Assembly (NCBI GenBank): GCA_021414115.1 | Contig: JAIOPD010000081.1 | Coordinates: forward strand, 1-38,522 | From: Planctomycetia bacterium | GTDB lineage: Bacteria > Planctomycetota > Planctomycetia > Pirellulales > UBA1268 | Length of the DNA stretch: 38,522 nucleotides | Reading direction: 5' to 3' | Shown: positions 1,204-37,488 of the stretch, piece after piece | Layout: every line of letters begins with the position of its first letter | Numbering within the stretch: the stretch's first letter is position 1 | Program-made: the position numbers and the translations under genes | Notes under the pieces: model-generated | Databases searched by the model: none | What the model saw: only the letters and a program-made list of their open reading frames with translations | Told to the model about the DNA's origin: nothing

Positions 1204-2774
1204 GCCTTGCCGCCGTCGCAGGGCCTCGTGCGCCCCGGTCGGGCACAGGCTCGCACCGTCGGGCGGCCGTGATCGGCAGCGGCTTTGGCGGCCTCGCGGC
1301 GGCCATCCGCCTGCAGTCACTGGGCTTCGAGACGGTCTGCTACGAGGCCCAGGATCAGCCCGGTGGCCGGGCCGCCGTCTACGAGGACGGTGGCTACGTC
1401 TTCGATGCAGGGCCGACCGTGATCACTGCCCCGCACTGCCTGGAGGAGCTGTTCGCGCTCTCGGGACGACGAATGGCCGACTATGTCCGCCTGTTGCCGG
1501 TGACGCCGCTCTATCGCCTGCAGTGGAGCGACGGCGTGGCCTTCGACTACGTCGCCGACGAGGCGGGGCTGATCGAGCAGGTGCGGCGGGTGAACCCAGC
1601 CGACGTGGATGGCTACCGTCGATTCGCCGACTACTCGCGGCAGGTGTTCGCCAAGGGCTACGAAGAGCTCGGCGCCGTTCCCTTTCTCAACTTCACCGAC
1701 ATGATCCGTGCGGCCCCGCACCTGGCCCGCCTGCGGGCCGACCGCAGCGTCTACGCGACCGTCTCGCGATTCGTCAAAGACGAGCACCTGCGGCAAGCGT
1801 TCAGCTTCCATCCGCTTCTGGTCGGCGGCAATCCCATGGAGACGAGCTCCATCTACACGTTGATTCACTGGATCGAGCGGAAGTGGGGCGTGTTCTTTCC
1901 CGAGGGAGGCACCGGAGCGCTCGTCCGCGGCCTGGTGCGGCTTTTCCAGGACCTCGGGGGCACGCTGCGCCTCGAGTCGCCGGTCGATCGGGTCACGCTC
2001 GAGACCAACGGCGGCGCGACCAGGCATATCGTCCACGCCGCCGGCGGGCCGCCGCAGGCGTTCGATGTCGTCGTCTCCAACGCCGACGTCCACCATACCT
2101 ATGCCCGGCTCTACCGCGGGGTTGCCGCCGCCGGCCGCCGGCAGCGGCGGCTCGAGCGAATGGCCTGGTCGATGTCGCTGTTCGTGCTCTATTTCGGCAC
2201 CAACCGGCGGTATCCGAATCTGGCCCACCACACGATCCTGTTCGGGCCGCGTTTCCAGGGGCTCCTGCGGGACATCTTCCACGGCCACCGCCTCCCCGCT
2301 GACTTCAGCCTCTACCTTCACGCCCCCACGATCACCGACCCGGGCATGGCCCCGCCCGGAGGCGAGTCGTTCTACGTGCTCAGCCCCGTGCCCCATCTGG
2401 GAAACGCGGCGATCGACTGGGAGGCGGTGGCCAAGGGCTACGGCGACGCGATTCTCGAGTCGCTCGAGCCGCACCTCCCCGGGGTCCGTGACGCGATCGT
2501 GACCCGGCGACACTGCACGCCCGCCGACTTCGCCAGCCGGTTCAACGCCCATCACGGCTCCGCCTTCTCGGTCGCTCCGACGCTGACGCAGAGCGCCTAC
2601 TTCCGCCCCCACAATCGCGACCCGGACATCCCAGGTCTGTATCTCGTCGGGGCCGGCACCCACCCGGGCGCCGGAGTGCCCGGCGTCGTCAACTCCGCCA
2701 AGGCCACCTGCGACACGATCGCGGCCGACTTCCATGTCGTCGGTTTGGGACACGCCTTGGGAAAACCGGGGTAG
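1200..2774 (+). CDS. crtI: Phytoene desaturase (CrtI type)
   Basis: A 524-residue FAD-dependent carotene desaturase, which introduces double bases of unsaturation into phytoene to give lycopene. The N-terminal dinucleotide-binding fold is clear: VIGSGFGGLAAAIRL near residues 24-38, then a PGGRA segment and DAGPTVIT. The C-terminal CrtI signature GAGTHPGAGVPGVVNSAKA lies near residues 484-502. Length is normal for bacterial CrtI. The GTG start is chosen because it overlaps the crtE stop. The TAG stop lies inside the left arm of a 16-base inverted repeat (2768-2783), so the last few residues may be encoded by inserted sequence. Which desaturation product it makes cannot be read from sequence. 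Confidence 0.93.
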   Translation: MSLAAVAGPRAPRSGTGSHRRAAVIGSGFGGLAAAIRLQSLGFETVCYEAQDQPGGRAAVYEDGGYVFDAGPTVITAPHCLEELFALSGRRMADYVRLLPVTPLYRLQWSDGVAFDYVADEAGLIEQVRRVNPADVDGYRRFADYSRQVFAKGYEELGAVPFLNFTDMIRAAPHLARLRADRSVYATVSRFVKDEHLRQAFSFHPLLVGGNPMETSSIYTLIHWIERKWGVFFPEGGTGALVRGLVRLFQDLGGTLRLESPVDRVTLETNGGATRHIVHAAGGPPQAFDVVVSNADVHHTYARLYRGVAAAGRRQRRLERMAWSMSLFVLYFGTNRRYPNLAHHTILFGPRFQGLLRDIFHGHRLPADFSLYLHAPTITDPGMAPPGGESFYVLSPVPHLGNAAIDWEAVAKGYGDAILESLEPHLPGVRDAIVTRRHCTPADFASRFNAHHGSAFSVAPTLTQSAYFRPHNRDPDIPGLYLVGAGTHPGAGVPGVVNSAKATCDTIAADFHVVGLGHALGKPG

Positions 2775-7479: not shown

Positions 7480-7769
7480 CCGTAGGTCCTCAACCTCAAC
7501 CGGCTCCCCGCCGCTGGCAAGGGGTGCCACCCGTATACCCGTCGCTTGCGCTCCGGGCTTCCCTGGCAGCGGACACAATCGAGAACCCGCGAGGGGCTGC
7601 CCGTGCCCCGTGAGCCGGGCTCGGCGGCCAGCGAAGCCAGGATGGCGAAGCGCAGCCGGCGTGCAGAGAGCGAAGGGCAGGGATGCCCGTAGCGAACGTC
7701 CGGCTCCCGGGGAACGGGCAGCCCCGAGCCCGCAGCGAACGTCCGGCTCCCGGGGCACGGGCAGCCCCG
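7480..7769 (-). repeat. Composite repeat: C-C-C units and one A unit
   Basis: This fills the convergent gap between the YceI gene and glnE. Read on the minus strand it has the layout of the elements at 34120 and 36264: C units at 7752-7768, 7709-7725 (both one way) and 7593-7609 (opposite), then the A unit at 7529-7563, then a tail at 7480-7525 that matches 34480-34545. The C unit is GGGGCTGCCCGTGCCCC or its complement, itself a hairpin with a GGGGC/GCCCC stem. The A unit loop is GCAA. No B unit is seen here. Confidence 0.85.
7691..7769. repeat. Tandem duplication of a C-repeat unit
   Basis: A segment beginning AGCGAACGTCCGGCTCCC starts at 7691 and again at 7734, 43 bases later. The two copies differ at one position (A or C in the loop of the C unit) over about 36 bases. 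This is a local duplication at the outer edge of the composite element, next to the glnE stop. Confidence 0.8.
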
Positions 7770-7782
7770 ACGTACGAACGGC

Positions 7783-10700
7783 TCACGCCTTCGCGAGCCT
7801 GGCTTCCGTCTCGTTGAAGATCCGCTCGAACTCGGCCCGGGTGCGGGCGGTGACGTTCTGAACGTCGTGAACCAGGGCGTCGGGACGTTCATAGCCGAGG
7901 AGGTGGGCGAGCGTTCTCTGTTCATCGGGTGATGAGGGGAAGTCGTGACGCGCCACCGCGTCGAGCAGCCGCAGCCGACCCTCGATCGACCGTAGCGTGC
8001 GATACGCCCGTTCCAGGAAGTCGAATCGCTCGTCGCCGAGCAGGCCCGTCTCATGCAGGGCGACGAGGGCCGCGAGCGTGCCGGTGGTCCGCACTCGTGG
8101 CTCGTGGCCGCCGTGCACCAGTTGCAGCATCTGGGCGACGAACTCGATGTCGACGACTCCGCCCGGTCCCCGCTTGAGATTCGAGGCCTTGGCCCCCTCC
8201 TCCATGCGATACCGCATCCGCCGCATCGCCTCGACCTCGTCCGCCTGCCATGCGTGGCCGTAGGTCGCGGTCTCGATGATCCGCCGCACGTCGTCGGCCG
8301 CCGCCGGGGCCGCGACGATCGGTCGCGCCTTGATCAGCGCCTGCCGCTCCCAGACGGCGGCCGGGCCATCGGCGGCGAGATACCGCGCAAACTCGGCGAG
8401 CGAGATTGCGGCCGCGCCGCTGCGGCCGCTAGGCCGCAACCGTGAATCGATTTCGTAGAGCCGGCCCTGTGGTCCGAAGGCGTTGCAGACCCGCATCACC
8501 CGCTGGGCCAGTTCGCCGAAGAAGTGAGTGTTGGTCGTGCCGTCGCTCGCCTTGCGGCCGCGACGCGGCGGCGATGTGGTGCCGTCGTGGTCGTAGAGAA
8601 AGATCACGTCGACGTCGCTCGCGTAGTTCATCTCGCGGCCGCCAAACTTCCCCATCGCGAGCACGACCATGTCGGCCGGGCCGCCCGTCGCGGACCGCGG
8701 CTCGCCCAGCCGCTCCACGAGCTTCGCCCGCTCGATCGCAACCACCTGCTTCACCAGCGCCTCGGCGATGGCCGTGAGCGCCGCCGTCGTCGTTTCGGCA
8801 TCCTGTCTGCCGAGCATGTCACGCACGCCGACCCGCAGTTGCTGCGAAGCCTTGAAGGACTGGAGGATCGGTTCGGCGTCCACTGCCCGTCGGCAGAGTT
8901 CCGCCAGGCTCTGCTCGAGGGCTGCGGGCGTCGGCAGCCGCTCGATCAGCAGGCTGTCGAGCAGTTCGTCGATCATGCCCGGATTCGTGACCAGCAGGTT
9001 GGCGAGAAAGGGACTCGACGAACAGAGCCGCACCGTCAGATCGAGTGACGGCGGGTTGAAGCTGAAGAGTTCCCAGAGCACGCCCTTGCCGCCCAGCGAA
9101 TCACTGACGGCCACGAGGTTGACGAGCGTGGTGTCGGGATCGGGCGTGTGGCCGATCGCGGCGAGGAGTCGGGGCGCGATCGCCGCCAGAAAGTGCCGGC
9201 AGCGGCGCGAGGAGAGAAACCGCACCTTTTCCTCGCCGAGCGAGAGGATCGCCCGGTGGGCCGCCGGCACGTCACGAAAGCCATGCCGGGCGAGCACCTC
9301 GCGGACGAAGTCGGGCGACGGTGCGGGATCGAGCACCAGATCGACTTCGGGCTCCGGCACGGCGTCGTCCGGAAAGGCGTCGTGCAGCAGGTGGTCGAGG
9401 ATCTTCCGGTTCAAGTCGGTCGCCTCGGCGAGATCGCGCCGGAGCAGGTCGCGGGCTCCGGCGTCGGCACCATATCCCATGCGCACCGCCAGCCGTCCCA
9501 TCTCCTCGTCGGTCCGGGGCAGCGCGTGCGTCTGCCGGTCATAGAGGATCTGGAGGCGGTGCTCCACCGTGCGCAAAAGCGAATAGGTTCGCTCGAGGAT
9601 CTCCCGCTCCTGATCGGTGAGGCCACCGGTCTCGGCGAGCCGTCGGATCGCCTCGAGCGTGTTGCCGGTGCGGACCCGCGGGGTGTCGCCGCCGTTCAAG
9701 AGTTGCAGAAACTGGATCGTGAACTCGATGTCGCGGATGCCGCCGTGGCCGGTCTTCACGTCGGCGGCCGCATCCCCGGAACGAATCGCCCGCTGCTCGA
9801 TGCGGCGCTTGAGCGCCTTGATGCCGCTGATGTCGGCCCGCGTCAGCCAGCGGCGATGAATCCAGGGCTCCATCTCCGCCAGCAGCCGCAGGCCGAGGGT
9901 CTCGTCCCCGCCGACGCACCGCGCCTTGACCCACGCCTGCCGCTCCCAGGTGCGGCCCGACTGGTCGAAATACTGCAGCATCGCTTCGAGCGACATCGAC
10001 GCCGGTCCTGTGCTGCCGTGTGGGCGGAGCCGCAGATCGACTCGGTAGGCCGCGCCCAGATCAGTCGGACCGCCGATCAGCCGCACGGCTTCCTGCACCA
10101 CGCGGTCGAAGAACTCCTGATTGGTGCAGGGCTTCGGACCCTCGACCCGGCCGTCGGCCGAGTGCACGAAGACCAGGTCGATGTCGCTGGAGTAGTTGAG
10201 TTCACCGCCGCCGAGTTTTCCCAGGGCGATCGCGGCGAGCGTCGCCCTGCCGCCGTCGGGCCCACGGGGCACGCCCCGCTGGCGTTCCACCCGGGCCAGC
10301 GCCGATCGCACCGCGGCATCGACGATGCAGTCGGCCACGTGCGAGATTTGCGCGACCACCGTTTCCAGTCGCTGCTTCTCGACGATGTCGCCGTAGGCGA
10401 TGCGGAGCGTCTGCCGGCGGCGAAATCGCCGCAGGGCCCGCATCACGTTCTCCGGATCGTCGAGCGTGCCGAGCTCCGCCGCCAGCGCCGCGGCGAGTGC
10501 TTCCCGTTTCTCGGGGCGGCCGCGGCCCACCCGCACGTCCTCCCAGGCCTCGGGATCGGCGATCACCATCTCGGCCAGGTAGGGGCTCGCCGAGAAGATG
10601 CCCAGCAGAATCTCGAGCGCCCGCGGATCGCGTTCGAAGAGCGCGGCGGCGGCGAGCGGATTGCGAACCGCGGCGATGAACCGCTCGACCGCCACGAGCA

Positions 10701-12506: not shown

Positions 12507-12727
12507 CGCCTCTTCGTCGGGAAGCCCCAAGCGCGAGCGCGGGGAATACGTCCCCCATCCCGACCCGCTCCGCATCAGGTCCGCGGGTCGCGACCCGTCT
12601 ACCCGTCTACCCGTCTACCCGTCGCTCGCGCTCCGGGCTTCCTTGGCACGGGATGCCCGCTCAACCCGCTCGGCCACGCCTCTTCGTCGGGAAGCCCCAA
12701 GCGCGAGCGCGGGGAATACGTCCCCCA
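12507..12727. repeat. B-A-B alternating repeat array with octamer expansion
   Basis: This lies in the co-directional gap between fmt and miaB. It holds B units (plus orientation) at 12519-12550 and 12689-12720 and an A unit (minus orientation) ending at 12643. The two B units sit in an identical 51-base segment (12507-12557 and 12677-12727). The outer end of the A unit has three tandem ACCCGTCT octamers (12593-12616) before its own core, where other copies have one at most. Without the two extra octamers the B-to-A module would be about 109 bases, matching the 108-base modules elsewhere. Confidence 0.88.
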
Positions 12728-21469: not shown

Positions 21470-21580
21470 ACCCGTTTACCCGTCGCTCGCGCTCCGGGCT
21501 TCCCCGGCACCTGATGCCACCGCTCTCGGCACGCCGCGTCGCTCCGTCAGGAAGCCCCAAGCGCGAGCGCGGGGTATACG
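21470..21580. repeat. A-B repeat pair, tail to tail
   Basis: An A unit in minus orientation (21473-21504) is followed by a B unit in plus orientation (21549-21580), a start-to-start offset of 76 bases. Both loops are GCGA. The pair fills the convergent gap between the M20 peptidase and scpB. This is the reverse order to the A-then-B modules elsewhere, and matches the internal B-to-A step of the longer array at 34281-34469. Confidence 0.87.
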
Positions 21581-26024: not shown

Positions 26025-26132
26025 ACGAAGCCCCAAGCGGAAGCGCGGGGGCTCCGCCCGCCATACCGTTGCGCTCCGCGTTGCCAACGAAGTCGCCCCC
26101 CGCTTTCCCATCGCTTCCGCTCCGGGCTTCCC
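26025..26132 (-). repeat. 108-base A/B repeat module (diverged copy)
   Basis: A B unit in plus orientation starts at 26025 and an A unit in minus orientation ends at 26132. The overall length of 108 bases equals that of the plus-strand modules at 34281, 36425 and 37381. Both units have diverged, yet each loop changed from GCGA to GGAA, which is still GNRA, and one stem pair became G-T (a wobble in RNA). The remaining gap sequence up to the oxidoreductase start (26133-26318) shows nothing else that I recognise. Confidence 0.8.
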
Positions 26133-26318: not shown

Positions 26319-27665
26319 ATGTCCACCTCGCCTCACCAGGAAAGCCACGCCCTCTCCCGCCGCGATGTCATCCGTGCCACTGGCGCCGCCGTGACCGCTG
26401 CCACGTCGCTCGGCATGCGGGGCGTCCACGCCGACAACCCGTCGAGCGACGTGCTCCGCATCGGCCTCATCGGAGCGGGCGGCCGTGGCCGTGGCGCCCT
26501 CGTGCAGACGCTCTCGGTGCCCGGCTCCAACGTGAAGCTCACGGCCGTGGCCGACGCCTTCAAGGGAGGCATCGACGGCACGATGCGGGCTGTCGAGGGG
26601 ATGAAGGACAAGGTTGACTGCCCCGAGGACCGCCGCTTCGAGGGCCTCGACGGCTACAAGCGGGTGATCGACGCCTGCGATCTCGTCATCCTCGCGACGC
26701 CCCCCGGCTTCCGGCCGTTCCACTTTGACGCCGCCGTGAAGGCGGGCAAACACGTCTTCATGGAGAAGCCCGTGTGCGTCGACAGCTATGGCGCCCGCCT
26801 CGTCCTCGAGGCCGCCAAGCAGGCCGACGAGAAGAAGCTCAAGGTGGTGGTGGGTCTGCAGCGCCGCTACCAGAACAACTACCGCGAGGCGCTCGCCAAG
26901 GTTCGCGAGGGCATGATCGGCGAGATCATCGGCGGCCAGGTCTACTGGAACGGCGGCGGCATCTGGTATCGCGGCCGACAGCCCAACACCACCGAGATGC
27001 AGTTTCAGGTCAACAACTGGTACCACTTCAACTGGCTCTGCGGCGACCACATCGCCGAACAGCACGTCCACAACATCGACGTCGCCAACTGGTTCCTCGA
27101 CAAACTGCCCGTCTCGGCCTACGGCGTCGGCGGCCGGCAAAACCGCGTGCCCAACCAGCCCAGCGAGATCTACGACCATCACGCGGTCAACTTCACCTAT
27201 CCGGGCGGCGCCCGGATCGCGAGCCAGTGCAAGCAGTTTCCCGGCGGCGACAACCGGGTTGATGAGGAGTTTCAGGGCACGAAGGGTGTGCTCAGGCTCC
27301 GCCCGGGGTCGGCTCAGATCACCGACCTGGCGGGCAATGAGCTCTGGAAGTTCTCTGGCCCCAACCCCGATCCCTACCAGGTCGAGCACGACGAACTGCA
27401 CGCCGCGATCCGCACCGACACGCCGAAGAACGACGCCTATTACGGCGCCACATCGAGCTTCTCGTCGGTGCTCGGCCGTTTGGCCACCTACTCCGGCAAG
27501 AACTGGGAATATGACAAGGCTCTCGCGCTCGACTACCGCACGATGCCCGAGGACCCGACCTGGGAGACGACGCCCCCAGTCGTGCCCGACAAGGACGGCA
27601 ACTACCCGTTGCCGATGCCGCAGACCTTCAAGATCACGTCGGTGACGAAGCCCGCCGTGTCATGA
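26319..27665 (+). CDS. Gfo/Idh/MocA family oxidoreductase with Tat signal
   Basis: A 448-residue NAD(P)-dependent oxidoreductase. The N-terminus carries a twin-arginine signal (SRRDVIRATGAAVTAATSLG), followed by the Rossmann fold LRIGLIGAGGRGRGALVQTL and the family motif EKPVCVDSYGAR. The C-terminal substrate domain includes GGQVYWNGGGIWYRGR and WLCGDHIAEQHVHNIDVANWFL with conserved histidines. Exported members of this family are abundant in planctomycetes and likely act on sugars or inositols. The ATG has AGGAGC nine bases upstream. Its stop overlaps the start of alanine dehydrogenase (ATGA). Substrate is unknown. Confidence 0.93.
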   Translation: MSTSPHQESHALSRRDVIRATGAAVTAATSLGMRGVHADNPSSDVLRIGLIGAGGRGRGALVQTLSVPGSNVKLTAVADAFKGGIDGTMRAVEGMKDKVDCPEDRRFEGLDGYKRVIDACDLVILATPPGFRPFHFDAAVKAGKHVFMEKPVCVDSYGARLVLEAAKQADEKKLKVVVGLQRRYQNNYREALAKVREGMIGEIIGGQVYWNGGGIWYRGRQPNTTEMQFQVNNWYHFNWLCGDHIAEQHVHNIDVANWFLDKLPVSAYGVGGRQNRVPNQPSEIYDHHAVNFTYPGGARIASQCKQFPGGDNRVDEEFQGTKGVLRLRPGSAQITDLAGNELWKFSGPNPDPYQVEHDELHAAIRTDTPKNDAYYGATSSFSSVLGRLATYSGKNWEYDKALALDYRTMPEDPTWETTPPVVPDKDGNYPLPMPQTFKITSVTKPAVS

Positions 27666-28771
27666 TCGTCGGTGTACCCCGGGAGACGAAGCGGGACGAA
27701 TACCGCGTGGCGCTTCTGCCCGTTGGGGTGGAGGAACTCGCCCGCGCGGGCCACACGGTCGTGGTGGAGCGGTCGGCTGGCGCAGGCTCGGGCCTCACCG
27801 ACGAGGCCTACGTGCAGTGCGGAGCCGAACTGGCCGACACCGCCGCCGACGTCTTCGCTCGCGCCGAGCTGATCGTGAAGGTGAAGGAACCGCAGCCGCC
27901 GGAGCTCCGCCTGATCCGTCCGCGGCAGGCGATCTTCACCTACTTCCACTTCGCCGCCGACCGCAGGCTCACCGAGGGATTCCTGGCCACGGGTGCGACC
28001 GCGGTGGCCTACGAAACGCTCCGCGACGACCGCGGTCGGCTGCCGCTGCTCATCCCGATGAGCGAGGTGGCAGGCCGGATGAGCATCCAAGAGGGAGCCA
28101 AATACCTGGAACGACCGCAGATGGGCCGTGGCATTCTCCTGGGTGGAGTGCCCGGTGTGGCCCCCGCCAACGTGCTGGTGCTCGGCGCCGGCACCGTGGG
28201 CGCCAACGCCGCCAAGGTCGCCGCCGGCTTCGGTGCCAACATCGCGCTGCTCGACACCAGCCTCGAGAGGCTCCGCTACCTCGACGATGTCACGCCGCCC
28301 AACATCGACTGCCTCTACTCCGACCGCCACACGATCCGTGATCGGCTCGGCTGGGCTGACCTCGTGATCGGCAGCGTGCTCATCCCGGGGGCGCGGGCGC
28401 CGCACCTGGTCGAGCGGAACGACCTCGCCCTCATGAAGCCGGGCGCGGTGATCATCGACGTCGCCATCGACCAGGGGGGCTGCGTGGCGACGAGTCGTCC
28501 TACGACCCACGCCGAGCCGACCTACGTCGTGGACGATGTCGTCCATTACTGCGTCACAAACATGCCGGGCGCCGTCGGCCGTACGAGCACCTACGCGCTA
28601 TGCAACGCCACGCTCCCCTACGTGATCGAACTCGCCTCGCAGGGCGTCGAGGCCGCCGCCAGGAGGAGCCCCGCGCTCCGCTCGGCCGTCAACGTGTTCG
28701 ACGGCCGGCTCGTGCAGCCCGCCGTCGCCGCCGCGTGCGGACTTCCCTGCGAAACGTTCCTGGCATCCTGA
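27662..28771 (+). CDS. ald: Alanine dehydrogenase
   Basis: A 369-residue NAD-dependent enzyme that interconverts L-alanine and pyruvate plus ammonia. Conserved residues are visible: R15 in VPRETKRDEYRVALLP, K75 in IVKVKEPQPPE and H96 in FTYFHFAADRRL. The nucleotide-binding loop is VLVLGAGTVGANAAKVAAGFGA. The C-terminal block MPGAVGRTSTYALCNATLPY is a family signature. Length is normal. It starts by a 4-base overlap with the exported oxidoreductase gene, so the two are translationally coupled, although a functional link is not obvious. mtnA follows after 18 bases. Confidence 0.96.
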   Translation: MIVGVPRETKRDEYRVALLPVGVEELARAGHTVVVERSAGAGSGLTDEAYVQCGAELADTAADVFARAELIVKVKEPQPPELRLIRPRQAIFTYFHFAADRRLTEGFLATGATAVAYETLRDDRGRLPLLIPMSEVAGRMSIQEGAKYLERPQMGRGILLGGVPGVAPANVLVLGAGTVGANAAKVAAGFGANIALLDTSLERLRYLDDVTPPNIDCLYSDRHTIRDRLGWADLVIGSVLIPGARAPHLVERNDLALMKPGAVIIDVAIDQGGCVATSRPTTHAEPTYVVDDVVHYCVTNMPGAVGRTSTYALCNATLPYVIELASQGVEAAARRSPALRSAVNVFDGRLVQPAVAAACGLPCETFLAS

Positions 28772-28789
28772 GCCCCGCGAGCACTGCCC

Positions 28790-29869
28790 GTGTCATCAGC
28801 GCCCACCGTCCCGGTAGCCCTCCGCTGGCAGGGCGACGCCACCGGCCATCTCGAACTCGTCGATCAGACGCTGCTCCCCGTGCGTCTCGAATGGATCGCC
28901 TGCCGCGATGTGGACACCGTCGTGGAGGCGATCAAGAGCCTGCGTGTGCGTGGCGCACCCGCGATCGGCATCGCCGGCGGTTACGGCCTCGTCGTGGCCG
29001 CGGCAGAGGCCGTTCGCGACGCCATGAACGCCGACCGCGGCCGCGGCCACATCCTGGCGCAGGCCGAACGACTCGCGACGGCCCGGCCAACGGCCGTCAA
29101 CCTGCGTTGGGCCGTCGAGCGGTGTGTCGCGGTCCTCGACCGGCTGCCGGACGATGCCTCGACGATCGCCATGGCCGAGGCCCTGCTGGCCGAGGCACGC
29201 GTCATCCACGACGAAGACCGTCGGCTCTGCTCCGCCATCGGCCGCCACGGCGCCGCGATCCTGCCGCGAGGCGGCGTGCTCACCCACTGCAACACCGGTG
29301 GCCTGGCCACCGGCGGTGCCGGCACGGCGCTGGCCGTGATCACCACGGCCTGGGACGCGGGCCGCCGATTCGAGGTCTTCGCTGACGAGACGCGGCCGCT
29401 GTTTCAGGGAGCCCGGCTCACCGCCTGGGAGCTCGTGCAGCGCGGCATTCCCGTCACCGTGATCTGCGACTCGGCCGCCGGTCACCTGCTGACGACCGGC
29501 CGGGTGGCGGCCTGTGTCGTCGGGGCCGATCGGATCACCGCCAACGGCGACACTGCCAACAAGATCGGCACCTACGGCCTGGCGGTGCTTGCGGCTGCCC
29601 ACGGCGTGCCCTTCTACGTCGCCGCGCCGTCGAGCACGTTCGACCTCACGCTCGACACGGGCGTTGAGATTCCGATCGAGGAGCGTGCGGCCACCGAGGT
29701 CACGCATCCGCTCGGGGTGATCGCCGCCCCTGACGGCGCCCTGGCCTACAACCCTGCGTTTGACGTCACGCCTGCCCGGCTCATCAAGGGCATCATCACC
29801 GAGCACGGCGTGATCGAGCCCGTGACCCGCGACCGCATCCGCGCCGTGCTCGCCACGCCATCCCGTTGA
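28790..29869 (+). CDS. mtnA: S-methyl-5-thioribose-1-phosphate isomerase
   Basis: A 359-residue enzyme of the methionine salvage pathway, converting methylthioribose-1-phosphate to methylthioribulose-1-phosphate. Family blocks are SLRVRGAPAIGIAGGYG, THCNTGGLATGGAGTAL (catalytic cysteine near residue 167), DETRPLFQGARLTAWEL and VVGADRITANGDTANKIGTY (catalytic aspartate near 246), and PIEERAATEVTHPLG. The start is GTG at 28790. It is the last gene of the oxidoreductase-ald-mtnA run and is followed by an A/B repeat module. Other salvage genes are not in the window. The related eIF2B-like sugar-phosphate isomerases are excluded by the full motif set. Confidence 0.95.
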   Translation: MSSAPTVPVALRWQGDATGHLELVDQTLLPVRLEWIACRDVDTVVEAIKSLRVRGAPAIGIAGGYGLVVAAAEAVRDAMNADRGRGHILAQAERLATARPTAVNLRWAVERCVAVLDRLPDDASTIAMAEALLAEARVIHDEDRRLCSAIGRHGAAILPRGGVLTHCNTGGLATGGAGTALAVITTAWDAGRRFEVFADETRPLFQGARLTAWELVQRGIPVTVICDSAAGHLLTTGRVAACVVGADRITANGDTANKIGTYGLAVLAAAHGVPFYVAAPSSTFDLTLDTGVEIPIEERAATEVTHPLGVIAAPDGALAYNPAFDVTPARLIKGIITEHGVIEPVTRDRIRAVLATPSR

Positions 29870-29884
29870 GCGACACCTTCCGTC

Positions 29885-30002
29885 AGGAATCCCCAAGCGC
29901 CAGCGCGGGGTATCCGGGTGGCCTCGAAATCGACGTCTGCGGCACCTCACGGCGACGCCTCGACGCGACGCGGCTACCCGTCGCTCGCGCTCCGGGCTTC
30001 CC
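29885..30002 (-). repeat. A/B repeat module, 118 bases
   Basis: A B unit in plus orientation (29885-29916) and an A unit in minus orientation (29974-30002) lie in the gap after mtnA. The module is ten bases longer than the 108-base form. The B loop is GCCA rather than GNRA, and one of its stem-foot bases is changed (AATCCCC for AAGCCCC). The A unit is intact with a GCGA loop. Confidence 0.82.
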
Positions 30003-30086
30003 GAGACATTCGAATCGCCGACTCCCTCCGCCTCCCCGATGTAAACTCAAGAGGCTCGACTGTCTCCGGATCGGTAACCCGCCCTC

Positions 30087-32717
30087 ATGAACCCCCTTCT
30101 CGACACCGACACAGCCCCGTTCTCGCCTGCGGCCACGCAGGGCGGACGGCAAAATCCCTTTCCTGGCTACAAGGCCCCGGAGGGGAGTTACGACGAGCTC
30201 TGCGGTGCCGACGGCCTGCCGCGGCTGCACTGGCAACGCCTCGTCCACCAGCTCGGCTCGTGGCAGCCCGCGGAACTCGCGGAACGGTGGGAGCAGGCCC
30301 GCCGCCTGATTCGCGACAATGGCGTCACCTACACGATGCAGGACGAGAAGTCGGGCGAACAGCGGCCGTGGGTCCTCGACCCGATTCCGCTCGTGATCGC
30401 CGACGCCGACTGGACCCGACTCGAGGTGGGCATCAATCAGCGGGCCCGGGTGCTCGATGCCCTGCTCGCCGATATTTATGGTCCGCAGCAGTTGCTTCGC
30501 GAAGGCATCGTGCCGCCCGAGCTCGTGCTCGGACATCCCGCCTTTCTCCGCTGCTGCCACGGCCTGCCGGTCGTCGGCGGACGCTGGCTGCATCTCTACG
30601 CCGCCGTCGTCGCCCGCAACCGTGACGGCCAGTGGATGGCGCTCGGCGACCGCACCGACGTGCCCCGCGGCCTGGGCTACGCGCTCGAGAATCGGCTCGT
30701 CGTTTCCCGGCTGTTTCCGGCGGCGTTCCAGGAGTGCAACGTGGAGCGGCTGGCGCCCTTCTTCATGGGGCTGCGGTCGTTGCTTCGCGGGCTCGCCCCG
30801 GGCCGCGACGATCCGCGCATCGGCCTGCAGAGCCCCGGCCCGTCGAGCTCGACCTACTTCGAAGACGCCTACCTCGCCCGCTACCTCGGCTATCCGCTCG
30901 TTGAAGGGGGCGATCTCGCGGTCCGCGACGACCGCCTCGGCCTCAAGACTCTCGGCGGCCTCGTGCCGATGGATGTGCTGCTGCGGCGGGTGCCCGACCG
31001 ACAGTGCGATCCGCTGGAACTCGACGGCACGGCCCTGGAGGGCACACCGGGGCTCGTGCAGGCGGTTCGCCGCGGCCGTGCCGCCGTCGCCAATGCCCTG
31101 GGCAGCGGGATCGTCGAGTCTCCTGGATTCGCGGAGTTTCTTCCTGCCGTGTCGCGACGGCTGCTGGGCGAGGAACTCGAACTGGCCACTCCACGCTCGT
31201 GGTGGTGCGGCATCCCCGCCAATCTTGACCACGTGCTTCACTCGCTCGATGACTGCGTGGTGGAGCCGGTCGCTTCGCGTCGCGGCATGAAGCGGTTCGT
31301 GCCGGCGCTGCTCGATGCTGCGTCGCGGTCCCGGCTGGTCGACGAGATCCGGGCCCGGCCAGCCGAATGGGTCGGTCGCGAGCGGGTGGAACGCTCGGTC
31401 GCCCCCTGCTGGAACGACGCCGCGATCGCCCCCGCGTCGGTGCTGATGCGGTGTTTCGCCATCGCAGCCCCCGAGGGCTACCAGACGATGCGGGGGGCGT
31501 TGGCGAGAATGTCTGCGGGCCGGACATCCGGAGAAGAGCTGCTCCTCTCCAGCCAGGGTTCGAAGGACGTCTGGGTGCTTGCGAAAGGACCGGTTCCTCC
31601 GGTCACGCTCCTCCGCCGGCCCGGCCAGCCGATCCCGCTGCGGCGCAGCGGCTATGACCTCCCGAGCCGTGTGGCCGATCACCTCCACTGGCTCGGGCGG
31701 CACGTCGAACGTGCCGAAGGAACGGCCCGCCTGCTGCGCACCGTGACGAATCGTCTGGCATCGGAGTCGCACCAGGAATGCGCTGCCGAGGCAGCGGTCT
31801 TGCTCAACGCGCTGGCAGGCCCGGCGCAAAGCCGACCCGAATGGCTCTCGCCGTCGCAGCCCAACGCCCTGTGGGAGATGCACGCGGAGATCCAGAAACT
31901 CGTCCACGACGGATCTCGGCTGGGCAGCGTGCGGGAGAGCATCGATCGTCTGTGGCGGACGGCGTCGGTCGTCCGCGACCGAATCTCGATCGACTCCTGG
32001 AAGGTCCTCTCGCGGGTGCGCCGCGACTCGCTCTCGGGCCGACCGGCCGTCACGCTCTCGCCGGGCCGGTTCGCCGACGTGCTGCCCCACCTCGACACCG
32101 TGATCTTCGAACTTTCCGCCTTCGCCGGACTCGGCATGGAAAGCATGACCCGTGGGCCGGGCTGGCGCTTCCTCGACATGGGCCGCCGGCTGGAACGGGC
32201 TGCGGCGATGATTCAGCTGCTCGAGCCGACCCTCGCGGCGGCTCGACCGCCGGTGCTGGGCGACGGCGGCCGCTCCGACACGCAACGGCTCGACGAGATG
32301 CTCCTCGAAATCGCCGACAGCTCGATGACCTACCGCAACCGCTATCCCGGCGTGCTCGAGGCGGCCCCGCTGATCGATCTGCTGCTGATCGACGACACCA
32401 ACCCACGAAGCGTCGGTTTTCAGTTCGCGGCGCTCGCCGACCACGTGCAGGCGCTCCCCGACGACGATGCCTCGCCGGTGCTTTCGGGGGAAAGGCGGGC
32501 CGTGATGGACGCCGTCGGCCAGCTGAGGCTCGCCGACGTGGACCGGCTCGCGCAGATCGACGACCGTGGCTCCCGCAGCGAACTTGCGAACCTCCTCGGA
32601 CGACTCGACGGGCTCGTGCGGGAGTTTTCCGACGCCATCACCCACCGCTATCTCGTTCACTCCACGCCGCGGCGGCGGCTGGGCGACGTTCCGAGCCTCC
32701 CCGCCAACGGAGCGTGA
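30087..32717 (+). CDS. Circularly permuted ATP-grasp / Alpha-E fusion protein
   Basis: An 876-residue fusion. The N-terminal half (about 60-490) is a circularly permuted type 2 ATP-grasp. Recognisable parts are GVTYTM, WVLDPIPLVI, LGDRTDVPRGLGYALENR, the SPGPSSSTYFEDAYLARYLG segment (about 250-270), VEGGDLAVRDDRLGLKTLGGLVPMDVLLRR, and ANALGSGIVESP...FLP...LLGEEL...WWCG (to about 375). From about 525 a helical Alpha-E domain follows (LHWLGRHVERAEGTARLLR...). In other bacteria these two domains are often separate neighbouring genes beside a transglutaminase-like protein; comparative work suggests peptide- or amide-bond formation, but the product is unknown. No transglutaminase gene is present here. 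der follows after seven bases. Confidence 0.9.
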   Translation: MNPLLDTDTAPFSPAATQGGRQNPFPGYKAPEGSYDELCGADGLPRLHWQRLVHQLGSWQPAELAERWEQARRLIRDNGVTYTMQDEKSGEQRPWVLDPIPLVIADADWTRLEVGINQRARVLDALLADIYGPQQLLREGIVPPELVLGHPAFLRCCHGLPVVGGRWLHLYAAVVARNRDGQWMALGDRTDVPRGLGYALENRLVVSRLFPAAFQECNVERLAPFFMGLRSLLRGLAPGRDDPRIGLQSPGPSSSTYFEDAYLARYLGYPLVEGGDLAVRDDRLGLKTLGGLVPMDVLLRRVPDRQCDPLELDGTALEGTPGLVQAVRRGRAAVANALGSGIVESPGFAEFLPAVSRRLLGEELELATPRSWWCGIPANLDHVLHSLDDCVVEPVASRRGMKRFVPALLDAASRSRLVDEIRARPAEWVGRERVERSVAPCWNDAAIAPASVLMRCFAIAAPEGYQTMRGALARMSAGRTSGEELLLSSQGSKDVWVLAKGPVPPVTLLRRPGQPIPLRRSGYDLPSRVADHLHWLGRHVERAEGTARLLRTVTNRLASESHQECAAEAAVLLNALAGPAQSRPEWLSPSQPNALWEMHAEIQKLVHDGSRLGSVRESIDRLWRTASVVRDRISIDSWKVLSRVRRDSLSGRPAVTLSPGRFADVLPHLDTVIFELSAFAGLGMESMTRGPGWRFLDMGRRLERAAAMIQLLEPTLAAARPPVLGDGGRSDTQRLDEMLLEIADSSMTYRNRYPGVLEAAPLIDLLLIDDTNPRSVGFQFAALADHVQALPDDDASPVLSGERRAVMDAVGQLRLADVDRLAQIDDRGSRSELANLLGRLDGLVREFSDAITHRYLVHSTPRRRLGDVPSLPANGA

Positions 32718-32724
32718 CCCGCCC

Positions 32725-34068
32725 ATGATTCCCCATGTCGTCATCGTCGGCCGGCCCAACGTGGGCAAATCGACCCTCTTTAACTGGCTCATCGAGAAGC
32801 GGATCGCGATCGAGGACCCGACAGCGGGCGTGACCCGCGATCGGCTCGTGCAGCGGGTCGAACTCGACGGCCGTGTGATGGAGCTGGTCGACACCGGTGG
32901 CATGGGCTTCGACGATCCCGACGGGCTGACGGCGCACATCGACAAACAGATCGAATCGGGGCTCGCCTCGGCCGCCGTCGTGCTGTTCGTCGTCGATGTC
33001 CGTTCCGGGCCGCTGGCGGCCGACGTGGAGGTGGCCCGCCGCATCCGCAAGTTCGGCTGTCCCGTGATCCTCGTGGCAAACAAGGCCGACGGGCCGAAGC
33101 TCGATCCGCAGGCCCACGAGTTTGCCGCCCTCGGCTTCGGCGAGCCCCTCGTCGTCAGTGCCCGCCAGAATCGCAACCGGGTCTATCTCGTCGACGCGAT
33201 CCTCGAACGGCTGCCAGAACCGACGGGCGACGAGCCGGAATCGGCCGATCTACCCGAGATGAAGCTCGCCATGGTGGGCCGCCGCAACGTGGGCAAGAGC
33301 ACGTTCGTCAACTCCCTCGCCCACGAGGAGCGCGTGATCACGAGCCCCGTCGCCGGGACCACCCGCGACAGTGTCGACGTGCGCTTCGAGGTCGATGGCC
33401 GGTCCTTCCTCGCGATCGACACGCCGGGCCTGCGCCGATCGAAGAGCCGCACGACCGACGTCGATTTCTACTCGACGCATCGCGCCCAGCGGAGCGTCCG
33501 TCGTGCCGACGTCGTGCTCCTGTTCTTCGATGCCAGCGAACCGATCGGCAAGGTCGACAAACAGCTCGCCGACACGATCACGGAGGAGGCGAAGCCGGTC
33601 GTCTTTGTCGTCAACAAGTGGGATCTCTACGCAGCCGACGTGAAGAAGCAGGAGTGGGAGGAGTATCTCCGCGACACGTTCCGCACCATGCCGTGGGCGC
33701 CGGTGGCCTTCGTGACGGCCACCAAGGGCCGGAACGTGAAGGCGGTGATCGACACCGCCCAAAGGCTCTATCGCCAGAGCCGCGAACGGACCCCGACCGC
33801 CCGGCTCAACACCGTCCTCCGCCAGGCCGTCGAGGCCAACCGGCCGCCGGCCGACTCCCGTGGCCGGCCCGTCCGTCTCTACTACGCCACGCAGGTCGAG
33901 GTCGCTCCCCCCACGATCGTGATCTCGGCGAGTGCTCCGCGGAGTCTTTCGGATCCCTACCGCCGCTACCTGCTCAACGCCTTCCGCAAGGAGCTGCCGT
34001 TCCACGAGGTGCCGATCCGTCTCTACGTCCGCGGCAAGACCACGGCCGACAAGACGAACGACGACTAG
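32725..34068 (+). CDS. der: GTPase Der (EngA)
   Basis: A 447-residue tandem GTPase needed for 50S ribosome assembly. Two G domains are clear: GRPNVGKS (9-16) with GVTRD, DTGGMGF and NKAD, and GRRNVGKS (185-192) with GTTRDSVD, DTPGLRR and NKWD. The C-terminal KH-like domain ends RLYYATQVEVAPPTIVISAS...PYRRYLLNAFRKELPFHEVPIRLYVRGK, a typical Der ending. The open frame begins earlier, but the ATG at 32725 starts the fold and follows the ATP-grasp stop by seven bases, so the two genes probably share a transcript. Downstream is the largest repeat-filled gap of the window. Confidence 0.97.
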   Translation: MIPHVVIVGRPNVGKSTLFNWLIEKRIAIEDPTAGVTRDRLVQRVELDGRVMELVDTGGMGFDDPDGLTAHIDKQIESGLASAAVVLFVVDVRSGPLAADVEVARRIRKFGCPVILVANKADGPKLDPQAHEFAALGFGEPLVVSARQNRNRVYLVDAILERLPEPTGDEPESADLPEMKLAMVGRRNVGKSTFVNSLAHEERVITSPVAGTTRDSVDVRFEVDGRSFLAIDTPGLRRSKSRTTDVDFYSTHRAQRSVRRADVVLLFFDASEPIGKVDKQLADTITEEAKPVVFVVNKWDLYAADVKKQEWEEYLRDTFRTMPWAPVAFVTATKGRNVKAVIDTAQRLYRQSRERTPTARLNTVLRQAVEANRPPADSRGRPVRLYYATQVEVAPPTIVISASAPRSLSDPYRRYLLNAFRKELPFHEVPIRLYVRGKTTADKTNDD

Positions 34069-34119
34069 AGCGTATCCGCCTGTGGTGGATCGCCTGACGG
34101 CGGGCCCGAGTGGTGGGTC

Positions 34120-34545
34120 GGGGCTGCCCGTGCCCCGAGGGCCGGACGTTCACTCCGCCCATCCTGGGCGTCGTTCACGCGATGCTGCCTGCGCTTCGGC
34201 ATCCTGCCTGCGCTGGCCAGCAACGCCGGCTCTCGGGGCACGGGCATCCCCTCGCGGGTTCTCGATTGTGTCCGTTGCTGGGGAAGCCCGGAGCGCGAGC
34301 GACGGGTATACGGGTGACAACCGGGTGGGCTCCGCGGCGCGAGTCGGGGTGGAGGGCGTATGCCCCGCGCTCGCGCTTGGGGCTTCCTTGCGAGCAGGCG
34401 GTGCGGCCGGAAAAGCGACGGTGTCGGGGATCTCGGGAAGCCCGGAGCGCGAGCGACGGGTATACGGGGCGCGAGGCGTGCCAGCGGCGGGGAGCCGTTC
34501 GAGGTTGAGGACCTGCGGAAGTTGACAGCGGAACTTCAGCCAGCT
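34120..34545 (+). repeat. Composite repeat C-C-A-B-A plus tail
   Basis: This fills the convergent gap between der and bcp. In order: C unit (34120-34136), inverted C unit (34235-34251, start-to-start 115), A unit (34281-34315), inverted B unit (34357-34388), second A unit (34435-34469), then a tail (34480-34545) matching the one at 7480-7525 in inverted form. Between the C units is a GC-rich spacer also found at 36281-36378 and, in inverted form, at 7610-7708. A-to-B and B-to-A offsets are 76 and 78 bases. Confidence 0.88.
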
Positions 34546-34582
34546 CCTCGACCGCTCCGCATCACTGAAATGCGCTCTCGCC

Positions 34583-35053
34583 TCACGCCTCGGCAAGGGC
34601 CGCGAGCACCTGCTCGGCGTGGATGTCGGTCTTCACCGCCTTGAAGACCTTCGCGACCCGCCCCTCGGCATCGATCAGGAACGTGCTGCGGGCGATGCCC
34701 ATCGACTTCTTGCCGTACATGTTCTTTTCCCGCCAGGCACCATACTTCTCGGCTACCTTGTGGTCGGAATCGCAGAGGAGCGTGAAGGGGAGCTTGTACT
34801 TCGCCCGGAACGCCTCGTGGCTCGCCGGCCCGTCCGGGCTGACGCCGAGCACGACCGCCTTGAACTTCGCCAGCTTCGCCTTCGCGTCGCGGAAGCCGCA
34901 GGCCTCCTTCGTGCAGCCCGGGGTGTCGTCCTTGGGGTAGAAATAGAGGATGACGGGCGTGCCCTGGAGGCTCGAGAGCTTCAGCTTCGTGCCGTCGTGC
35001 GTCGCGAGTGTGAAATCGGGCGCCTTGGCGCCCGCCTCGATCCAATCGGCCAT
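34583..35053 (-). CDS. bcp: Thioredoxin-dependent peroxiredoxin (Bcp/PrxQ)
   Basis: A 156-residue peroxiredoxin that reduces peroxides with thioredoxin as donor. The active site reads YPKDDTPGCTKEACGF, with the peroxidatic cysteine C47 and a resolving cysteine C52 five residues later, the arrangement of PrxQ-type enzymes. The remaining fold (VVLGVSPDGPASHEAF, LLCDSDHKVAEKYGAW, ARSTFLIDAEGRV) is complete. Length is normal for Bcp. The ATG is 26 bases from the divergent start of the MnmE-like gene. Its 3' end faces der across the composite repeat, so the repeats may provide the transcription end for both. Confidence 0.96.
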   Translation of the reverse strand: MADWIEAGAKAPDFTLATHDGTKLKLSSLQGTPVILYFYPKDDTPGCTKEACGFRDAKAKLAKFKAVVLGVSPDGPASHEAFRAKYKLPFTLLCDSDHKVAEKYGAWREKNMYGKKSMGIARSTFLIDAEGRVAKVFKAVKTDIHAEQVLAALAEA

Positions 35054-35079
35054 GGGAGTTCTCCGCGCGGGGATGATGA

Positions 35080-36213
35080 GTGGTGACCACGTTTTCTAGC
35101 AGCCAGCCCGACGACGTCCAGACCATGCGGTGCAGTCTGCTCACGCCGCCTGGCCGCGGGGCACTAGCCGTGATCGGAGTCGCCGGAGGCGACGCGGTGG
35201 CGACCATCGACCGGCTGTTCGCAGCCCGGGGCGTGCCGGTCGCCGGGCGGCCCGACGGCGCGATCTGTTTCGGCACCTGGCGGGCGACGGGCGAGGACGT
35301 GGTCGTCGTGACACACGACCGCCAGCGGGCGGAGGTGCACTGCCACGGTGGCACGGCGGCCGCGGCGGCGATCCTCGCCGGCCTCGAGGCCGACGGGGCA
35401 CGGCGGGTGCCGTGGCACGACTGGCCGACCGACGATCGTGAAGCAACCTGTGCCGGGGCAGCCCTGAGGGCGCTGCCGTTCGCGGGCGGACCGAAAGCCG
35501 CGCGGATTCTGGCGCGGCAGGCGGCGGGAAGTCTCGACCGCGAACTGCTCCGCCTCGAGAAGGTCGCGCTGGCAGGCGATGACGCCGCCGCCCGCCGCGC
35601 TGCGGCGCGACTCCTTGCGGCCGCCCGCGTGGGCCTGCGGCTCACGACGCCGTGGCGGATCGTCCTCTCGGGCGGGGTCAACGCGGGCAAGAGCAGTCTC
35701 ATGAACGCCCTCGTCGGTCACGGCCGCAGCATCGTCTCACCGATCCCCGGCACGACCCGCGACGTGGTCACCGCCCGCGCCGTCATCGACGGCTGGGAGG
35801 TCGATCTCGTCGACGTCGCCGGTCTGCGCGGCGACGGGGCCGACGTGACGCCCGTGGAACGCGCGGGGATGGCCCGAGCCGCGACCGAACGTCACGCGGC
35901 CGATCTCGTCCTCCGCGTGGTGCCTGTGGATGCGATGCCGGAGGTCATGGAGGAGCGGCCGTCGAACGAACTGCTCGTGCTCTCGAAGGGCGACCTGGCC
36001 CCGTCTGTGACGCGGCCCCACGCGATCACCACGTCGGCGGTCACGGGCTTCGGCATCGACGCTCTGATCGCCGCGATCATCGACCGCCTTGTCCCCGAGG
36101 AGAGGCGTGATCCGGGGTTGCTCACCGGCCCGGTGCCGTTCACGCCATGGCAGGTTGACCTCGTCCGGGCCCGGTTTGGCGGAAGCGTGCCCGCCGGCGA
36201 TCGGCGTCTCTAG
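35080..36213 (+). CDS. Divergent MnmE/TrmE-like GTPase
   Basis: A 377-residue protein related to the tRNA-modifying GTPase MnmE. The N-terminal part has LLTPPGRGALAVIGVAGG, like the folate-binding domain, and VHCHGG. The inserted G domain has SGGVNAGKSS (about 197-206), GTTRDVV, DVAGLRG in place of DTAGLRG, and LSKGD in place of NKxD. The C-terminus is short and lacks the CxGK motif that is catalytic in MnmE (usual length about 450). It may be a degenerate or specialised paralogue, or a lineage-specific MnmE. The start is uncertain: GTG at 35080 or 35083, or ATG at 35125 just before the conserved part. Confidence 0.75.
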   Translation: MVTTFSSSQPDDVQTMRCSLLTPPGRGALAVIGVAGGDAVATIDRLFAARGVPVAGRPDGAICFGTWRATGEDVVVVTHDRQRAEVHCHGGTAAAAAILAGLEADGARRVPWHDWPTDDREATCAGAALRALPFAGGPKAARILARQAAGSLDRELLRLEKVALAGDDAAARRAAARLLAAARVGLRLTTPWRIVLSGGVNAGKSSLMNALVGHGRSIVSPIPGTTRDVVTARAVIDGWEVDLVDVAGLRGDGADVTPVERAGMARAATERHAADLVLRVVPVDAMPEVMEERPSNELLVLSKGDLAPSVTRPHAITTSAVTGFGIDALIAAIIDRLVPEERRDPGLLTGPVPFTPWQVDLVRARFGGSVPAGDRRL

Positions 36214-36263: not shown

Positions 36264-36532
36264 GGGGCTGCCCGTGCCCCGAGAACTGGACGTTCGCTGC
36301 GCCCATCCTGGGCTGCGCTCACTCGATGCTGCCTGCGCTTCGGCATCCTGCCTGCGCTGGCCAGCACCGCCCGTTCTCGGGGCACGGGCAGCCCCTCGCG
36401 GGTTCTCGCTGGTATTCGTTGTTCGGGAAGCCCGGAGCGCGAGCGACGGGTAGACGCGCCGCGACCGTGTTGGCGGCGGGGAGCCGTCCGACGTGGTGGA
36501 CGTATTCCCCGCGCTGGCGATTGGGGCTTCCT
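36264..36532 (+). repeat. Composite repeat C-C-A-B
   Basis: Between the MnmE-like gene and the next gene. C unit (36264-36280), inverted C unit (36379-36395, offset 115), A unit (36425-36456), inverted B unit (36501-36532, offset 76 from A). The B unit loop is GCCA and its inner G-C pair is lost; the outer CCCC/GGGG stem is kept. The rest of this 473-base gap (36533-36686) holds nothing that I recognise. Confidence 0.87.
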
Positions 36533-37380: not shown

Positions 37381-37488
37381 GGGAAGCCCGGATCGCGAGC
37401 GACGGGTAGACGGGTGACGACCGCGTGGGCTCCGCGGCGCGAGTCGGAGTGGAGGGCGTATGCCCCGCGCTCGCGCTTGGGGCTTCCT
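37381..37488 (+). repeat. 108-base A/B repeat module
   Basis: An A unit (37381-37412) and an inverted B unit (37457-37488) with the same 76-base offset and 108-base length as the modules at 34281 and 36425. The 44-base spacer is nearly identical to that at 34313-34356. The A unit has one change in the inner stem (GATCGC for GAGCGC) but keeps the GCGA loop. It fills the convergent gap before rpsA. Confidence 0.9.

Follow-up and report, generated by a model that had tools for sequence, protein, structure and literature searches.

The A and B repeats of this planctomycete genome very probably form a REP/BIME (REPIN-like) system in which a HUH/Y1 RAYT-type nuclease spreads A-B elements. Its basic element is a facing pair of one A and one B unit with an overall length of 108-109 bases. 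Confidence in this reading is slightly lowered by RAYT-negative planctomycete MAGs, unexplained short matches in the test for target-site duplications and three REPtrons in which no facing pair was called. The general kind, REP plus RAYT, is already known, and the A/B system is a new variant of it; searches of open-licence papers turned up no description of the A/B repeat family, which is weak evidence of absence.

Hairpin units and the facing A-B element

The window (38,522 bases, the whole stretch of DNA analysed) is an entire contig of a 4.35-Mb MAG (144 contigs, 95.4% complete; G000, here the source genome). It holds 17 units of ~32 bases, nine A and eight B, across eight intergenic gaps in our own gene calls (Table 1); a first-pass annotation made from the letters alone had reported the same inventory, and each unit was recovered where it had been placed. 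With up to three mismatches allowed, two 16-mers, one for A and one for B, match 18 and 15 places in the window, each also picking up part of the opposite family; in the dinucleotide-shuffled window the means are 2.9 and 0.6, and none of 100 shuffles reaches either observed count. The annotation described six A-B modules of 108 bases or with small insertions, in agreement with the measured lengths of 108 (four modules), 118 and 125. Its start-to-start steps of 76 and 78 bases are correctly computed but lump together two arrangements: in the pairs at 26025, 34281, 36425 and 37381, the 5' ends are outermost and the units face inward, forming the 108-base element, whereas the pairs at 21473 and 34357 are back to back.

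Table 1. Repeat units and elements of the window, and the RAYT-like gene on contig C100 of the same genome with its flanking units
Feature	Position	Strand	Remark
Lone A unit	7532..7563	-	
A-B facing element, 125 bases	12519..12643	-	Short GTAGACGG expansion following A hairpin
B unit	12689..12720	+	
A unit	21473..21504	-	Back to back with B at 21549
B unit	21549..21580	+	
A-B facing element, 108 bases	26025..26132	-	
A-B facing element, 118-base form	29885..30002	-	
A-B facing element, 108 bases	34281..34388	+	A unit 34281-34312 (+), B unit 34357-34388 (-)
Further A unit	34435..34466	+	Back to back with preceding B unit
A-B facing element, 108 bases	36425..36532	+	Syntenic gap of sister genome G017 without unit
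A-B facing element, 108 bases	37381..37488	+	
Units preceding C100 gene	C100: B 524, A 560, B 662	-, +, -	
RAYT-like gene	G000:C100:717-1241		174 aa protein; profile A1
Units following C100 gene	C100: B 1290, A 1326, B 1428, A 1464, B 1566	-, +, -, +, -	

Each unit consists of a foot, GAAG in 144 of the 156 source-genome units counted, and a hairpin of ~20 bases. The outer stem of the hairpin reads CCCG/CGGG in A units and CCCC/GGGG in B units; inward of it come two mismatched bases per side, then two G-C pairs and finally a four-base loop. The loops are mostly of GNRA type: GCGA is found in 73/95 A and 63/100 B units, followed by GCAA and GGAA, and the non-GNRA loop GCCA in 16/100 B units. 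In the three positions directly preceding the common GGAAG end, B units favor G (60%), T (81%) and C (87%); A units have GCTC where B has GTC.

Outer stems were scored at non-overlapping loci, with an anchor that imposes no base on them. Pair 4 is standard in 163/165 units of the source genome (G-C 83, C-G 77, G-T 3), in 39/40 units of its sister genome G017 and in 23/25 units of a third member of the genus, G014, where two of 25 units carry the stem variant CCAC/GTGG. The stems display the compensating changes expected of REP/BIME hairpins, although the pattern amounts to few compensating events, not many; of 25 distinct stem combinations, 10 are fully paired, a count within the shuffled range (mean 6.9, maximum 15). 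When folded with three additional bases per side, the element at 34281 is predicted to form a single long hairpin in which A pairs with B, at -73.2 kcal/mol (z -4.8) as RNA and with a z of -4.4 as DNA, so that the local hairpins and the long hairpin would compete. Two sub-threshold microRNA matches around 34359-34464 were taken as chance.

The family extends far beyond the window. An exact 20-mer covering A and B matches the source genome 452 times (reversed-pattern control 0), more than the ~100 copies per genome of a 20-40 base palindrome expected of REP/BIME repeats, and the exact A 16-mer gives 194 matches. Arrangement was analyzed in 792,426 bases of sampled sequence that include the window and come from contigs with known hits, which means that densities are not unbiased. 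The sample contains 195 units at up to six mismatches (10 in the reversed control), only 22 of them single. Alternating orientation and regular spacing, as in REP/BIME families, are evident: among 72 facing pairs shorter than 250 bases, 71 join A with B, and 60 measure 108 or 109 bases (107 in one pair, 108 in 32, 109 in 28, 110 in two, 118 in seven, 125 and 189 in one each). Back-to-back neighbors also pair A with B (25 of 26), with gaps varying from 3 to 68 bases, and same-direction neighbors within 250 bases are limited to six (five BB, one AA). Since the facing length is nearly fixed while the back-to-back gaps are variable, only the facing pair looks like a real module. Tandem arrays of elements occur as well, their steps measuring 127 (four), 150 (one) and 155 (two) bases.

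A second palindromic repeat, with the core GGGGCACGGGCAGCCCC, forms inverted pairs near A units (window 34120-34251, 36264-36395 and 7593-7768). The 792-kb sample contains 45 copies of the core (up to one mismatch), and 300 kb of G017 contain none. In a relaxed form, the core is located no more than 80 bases 5' of A in 9/72 elements and 5' of B in four. This repeat may be an independent family or a mosaic part.

Gene context and turnover of the elements

A simple home-made codon-based caller predicts 536 genes in the 792-kb sample (83% coding). As is typical of REP/BIME repeats, the elements are extragenic: 70/72 are intergenic, one is genic and one lies at a contig edge, and random 108-base blocks are 83% genic. 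Of the intergenic elements, 30 lie in tandem, 27 in convergent and 13 in divergent gaps; counted by gene pair, an element is held by 26/86 convergent, 27/347 tandem and 7/90 divergent pairs. Such enrichment in convergent gaps is the pattern expected for promoter-avoiding REPs.

The same bias, together with the strong predicted folds, would also be expected if the repeats were functional RNA or DNA hairpins selected at gene ends (as terminators, for mRNA 3' protection, or as gyrase or nucleoid sites) and the RAYT were now inactive. This explanation is unlikely, though it fares best among the alternatives. The tandem arrays suggest amplification, a search at Rfam gathering thresholds identified no known RNA family in the window, and the contents of gaps differ from those of the sister genome between closely similar flanks, indicating turnover instead of conserved sites.

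This turnover is seen by comparison to G017, whose DNA is 86-89% identical to window 26350-36183 wherever the two align. The gap between der and the peroxiredoxin gene spans 517 bases with A-B-A in the window vs. 38 bases with one degenerate A in G017; the 29927 gap contains a 118-base element vs. a B unit and two elements; the 37336 gap contains an element vs. a lone B unit; and the 36183 gap contains one element vs. no unit. G017 thus carries different units in three of these four gaps and lacks units in the fourth. Gap content has changed since the two genomes split, and the differences suggest that elements have moved. The breaks in the window/G017 alignment do not coincide exactly with element ends, and a clean empty site was found neither among five window stretches compared to G017 nor in 38 syntenic sample gaps, 36 of which are unit-free in both genomes and two of which hold a unit in G017 only.

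Two other differences were noted in passing. About 615 bases of the window (~27920-28534) are missing from the syntenic G017 contig, where their flanks abut. A dispersed repeat, GGTCGGCGAACGCTCGAGGAGC, has 23 copies (up to one mismatch) in 300 kb of G017, two in the source-genome sample, and was seen once in G011 (locus L191, beside der).

A unit-flanked RAYT-like gene and its relatives

A search of the source genome with the Pfam model PF01797 (Y1_Tnp) gave zero matches, which first suggested orphan repeats. The model has matches in 9/22 genomes of the genus, and four of five weak hits are proteins of ~163-172 aa that are encoded among hairpin repeats and carry FLTWT..G.WLPGD.RGW near the N-terminus. 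A profile of these four divergent relatives (A1) overturned the orphan reading: it finds one gene in the source genome, G000:C100:717-1232 (E=1.3e-65), and scores below 1e-60 in 9/22 genus genomes, including the four that supplied its members. Standard models can therefore miss this gene family, as the zero Y1_Tnp hits in the source genome illustrate.

The fifth weak hit (G010:C105) was set aside as a longer protein of a different type. Its gene (1420-2220, minus strand; 266 aa frame) encodes a Y1_Tnp-like protein, and short repeats, ACAGGCCTACGG, lie nearby in five copies in the locus.

The C100 gene is flanked by three A and five B units, from ~195 bases before it to 325 after, with a unit repeat step of 138. 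The first-pass annotation had interpreted the repeats as BIMEs and proposed looking for an IS200/IS605-like transposase gene flanked by units and for repeats beyond the window with preferred orientation and spacing; the C100 gene between A/B elements, the 452 genomic matches and the pairing rule all speak for its interpretation. The G017 homologue is likewise embedded, between B 1312+, A 1413-, B 1443+ on one side and B 2049+, A 2150- on the other, and both genes adjoin the same neighbor, which, recognized by eye, we take to be folD.

The proteins are distant from the canonical families. The source-genome RAYT scores 14.2 bits against PF01797 (cut-off 23) and 18.1 bits against NF047646 (cut-off 80), and 2/9 genus members pass the PF01797 cut-off. 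At E<=0.01, the NCBIfam IS200 model matches 9/9 genus proteins and the REP-transposase model 8/9. Profile comparison to six canonical Y1_Tnp domains from within the genus is insignificant (probability 1.3%, E=0.04), with the HUH motifs aligned; a PDB profile search with the RAYT and a PHROGs search with the source-genome protein returned no match. All nine genus proteins have an invariant HVH, an invariant Y162 and, five positions further along, an invariant Q167; HVH and Y are the putative catalytic residues.

The nine carriers among 22 genus genomes are G000, G005, G008, G010, G013, G014, G015, G016 and G017; several genomes are incomplete (51-97%), making gene absence there uncertain. Four repeat types were counted genome-wide, leaving out those that flank the G010 and G013 genes. 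The source-genome type has 452 copies in G000, 187 in G017, 21 in G014, one in G010 and none in the other 18 genomes; the G015 type has 293 in G015, seven in G010, three in G000, one in G020 and none in 18; the G016/G005 type has 19 in G005, 17 in G016, six in G014, four in G021 and none in 18; and the G008 type has 27 in G008, 17 in G010, four in G015, one each in G018 and G001 and none in 17. All four are abundant only in carriers, with strays in the apparently gene-less G018, G020, G021 and G001. The three G015-type copies in the source genome (G000:C78:119028, C126:9967 and C126:23316) possibly derive from an earlier or transferred RAYT.

Hairpin repeats lie on both sides of all nine genes. 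Each of the nine facing pairs called beside them joins two different unit types (one pair in each of G000, G014 and G015; two in each of G017, G010 and G008); beside the G016, G005 and G013 genes, the caller found no facing pair, and the units mostly run in the same direction. A protein tree was built from 24 rows, made up of the nine genes of the genus, 14 phylum loci and one acidobacterial locus. The nine form one group (93/93), within which the source-genome and G017 proteins (98/94) and those of G016 and G005 (100/99) are sisters. This topology is in line with the shared repeat types, which follow the RAYT lineage.

Beyond the genus, a profile of the nine members (A2) matches 55/392 sampled phylum genomes at E<=1e-10, the source genome included; the scan scored only nine candidates per genome, and the weaker matches could belong to other Y1 classes. 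Beside 29 wider-phylum RAYT loci, a search for AAG-anchored hairpins gave scattered hits only; a foot-free search, judged by eye, revealed hairpin-like repeats with a similar core beside many loci and none beside some, with feet that include GAAG, GTAG, CTAG and CCAG. One acidobacterial MAG has a RAYT (E=2.8e-33) beside GTAG (five) or GCAG (two) units; it is the only one of nine genomes reached via other repeat-pattern hits in which a RAYT was found. No RAYT match was obtained in three planctomycete MAGs that contain a few unit-like sequences, and in a pattern-based scan of viral contigs for a class-3-like RAYT, none of 30 pattern matches was confirmed. In the acidobacterial MAG (JAKEER010000502), locus L061 carries facing short units at 7890-7950, one nearly identical to the A hairpin of the window; the units beside its RAYT are of another type.

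The type of the unit-flanked gene, HUH/Y1-like, also bears on whether the repeats are a MITE, i.e., a non-autonomous DNA transposon of 108 bases that ends in imperfect inverted repeats of ~38 bases and is mobilized by a classical (DDE) transposase. The GGGAAGCCC...GGGTATACGGGTGGC common to A and B does make inverted repeats around a spacer, and the entire element folds as a single hairpin, yet A and B differ such that each keeps its local stem: at the outer-stem positions of 70 elements, 550/560 local pairs are standard vs. 416/560 A:B cross pairs. Direct repeats of 4, 5 and 6 bases are slightly above shuffles (5, 4 and 3 of 70 elements, values reached by 3, 1 and 2 of 100 shuffles), but this weak, unexplained excess concerns only 3-5 elements, and the best matches sit 3-11 bases off the element ends; repeats of 2 and 3 bases are equalled by 99 and 69 of 100 shuffles, and target-site duplications adjoining the ends of the 70 elements show no excess. 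A MITE is accordingly very improbable.

Under the REP/BIME reading, by contrast, the C100 RAYT, encoded by a single gene in the assembly, would most likely recognize the foot and hairpin in single-stranded DNA. By analogy with RAYT/TnpA-REP, its tyrosine would nick at the foot of a unit, and the nuclease would then copy or move the A-B element, joining it elsewhere. Elements probably persist in gaps after genes either because they do little harm there or because they act as 3'-end RNA hairpins.

Relation to known REP systems

The A/B system resembles the REP/BIME-RAYT systems (REPINs) of E. coli and Pseudomonas in its short, high-copy intergenic hairpins of two related, alternating types, its fixed-length facing doublets and tandem arrays, and the gene for a HUH tyrosine nuclease located amid the units. 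It differs from them in that its RAYT falls below the Y1_Tnp and REP-transposase cut-offs, and from enterobacterial REPs in its foot, GAAG instead of the GTAG that defines their super-family. Because the acidobacterial RAYT relative has GTAG/GCAG units, GAAG is viewed as a variant at the GTAG place, not as the mark of a third super-family.

Similarly to the CGTC-tagged REPs, as portrayed in a 2013 survey (PMC3733652), the units form facing dimers, and in several CGTC families these are heterodimers, often with conserved spacers; the stems differ, however, and a RAYT-like gene is found here while a transposase is reported lacking there. Membership in that super-family, reported without a dedicated transposase, can hardly be entertained: GTC commonly precedes B units, but it lies several bases off an outer stem that is CCC[CG]/[CG]GGG and starts with C-G, and A units carry GCTC instead, whereas the survey describes CGTC REPs as having CCA tails and stems of 8-9 bp that open with A-T pairs (PMC3733652).

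The RAYT itself resembles the little-studied class 3 of TnpA-Y1 proteins, a likeness drawn from sequence features and from passages of a 2018 survey (PMC6006769). Shared features are the Y....Q signature, a conserved N-terminus, hosts among Planctomycetes and Acidobacteria, and flanking hairpins that are not of the GT[AG]G type and reach high copy numbers in some hosts. The CnGA foot ascribed to class 3 would find a place only within the A hairpin (CGGA), the B hairpin having CCAA there, although which hairpin is meant is a guess; unlike the system described here, class 3 in these passages has no two-type A/B element, and its proteins are left there as an open question that needs experiments (PMC6006769).

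We tentatively propose, at somewhat less than even odds, that a separate class-3-like RAYT lineage of Planctomycetota and Acidobacteriota drives obligate heterodimers with defined left and right ends, resembling a tiny non-autonomous ssDNA transposon, and that the pair diverges with its RAYT but still obeys the two-type rule where both sequences have changed. Because this planctomycete genus offers nine carriers whose repeats have diverged, recognition of two different hairpins by one small nuclease becomes directly testable. If true, this proposal would explain the frequent heterodimers among REP dimers, whose preferential formation, in the words of the 2013 survey, "has no obvious explanation" (PMC3733652).
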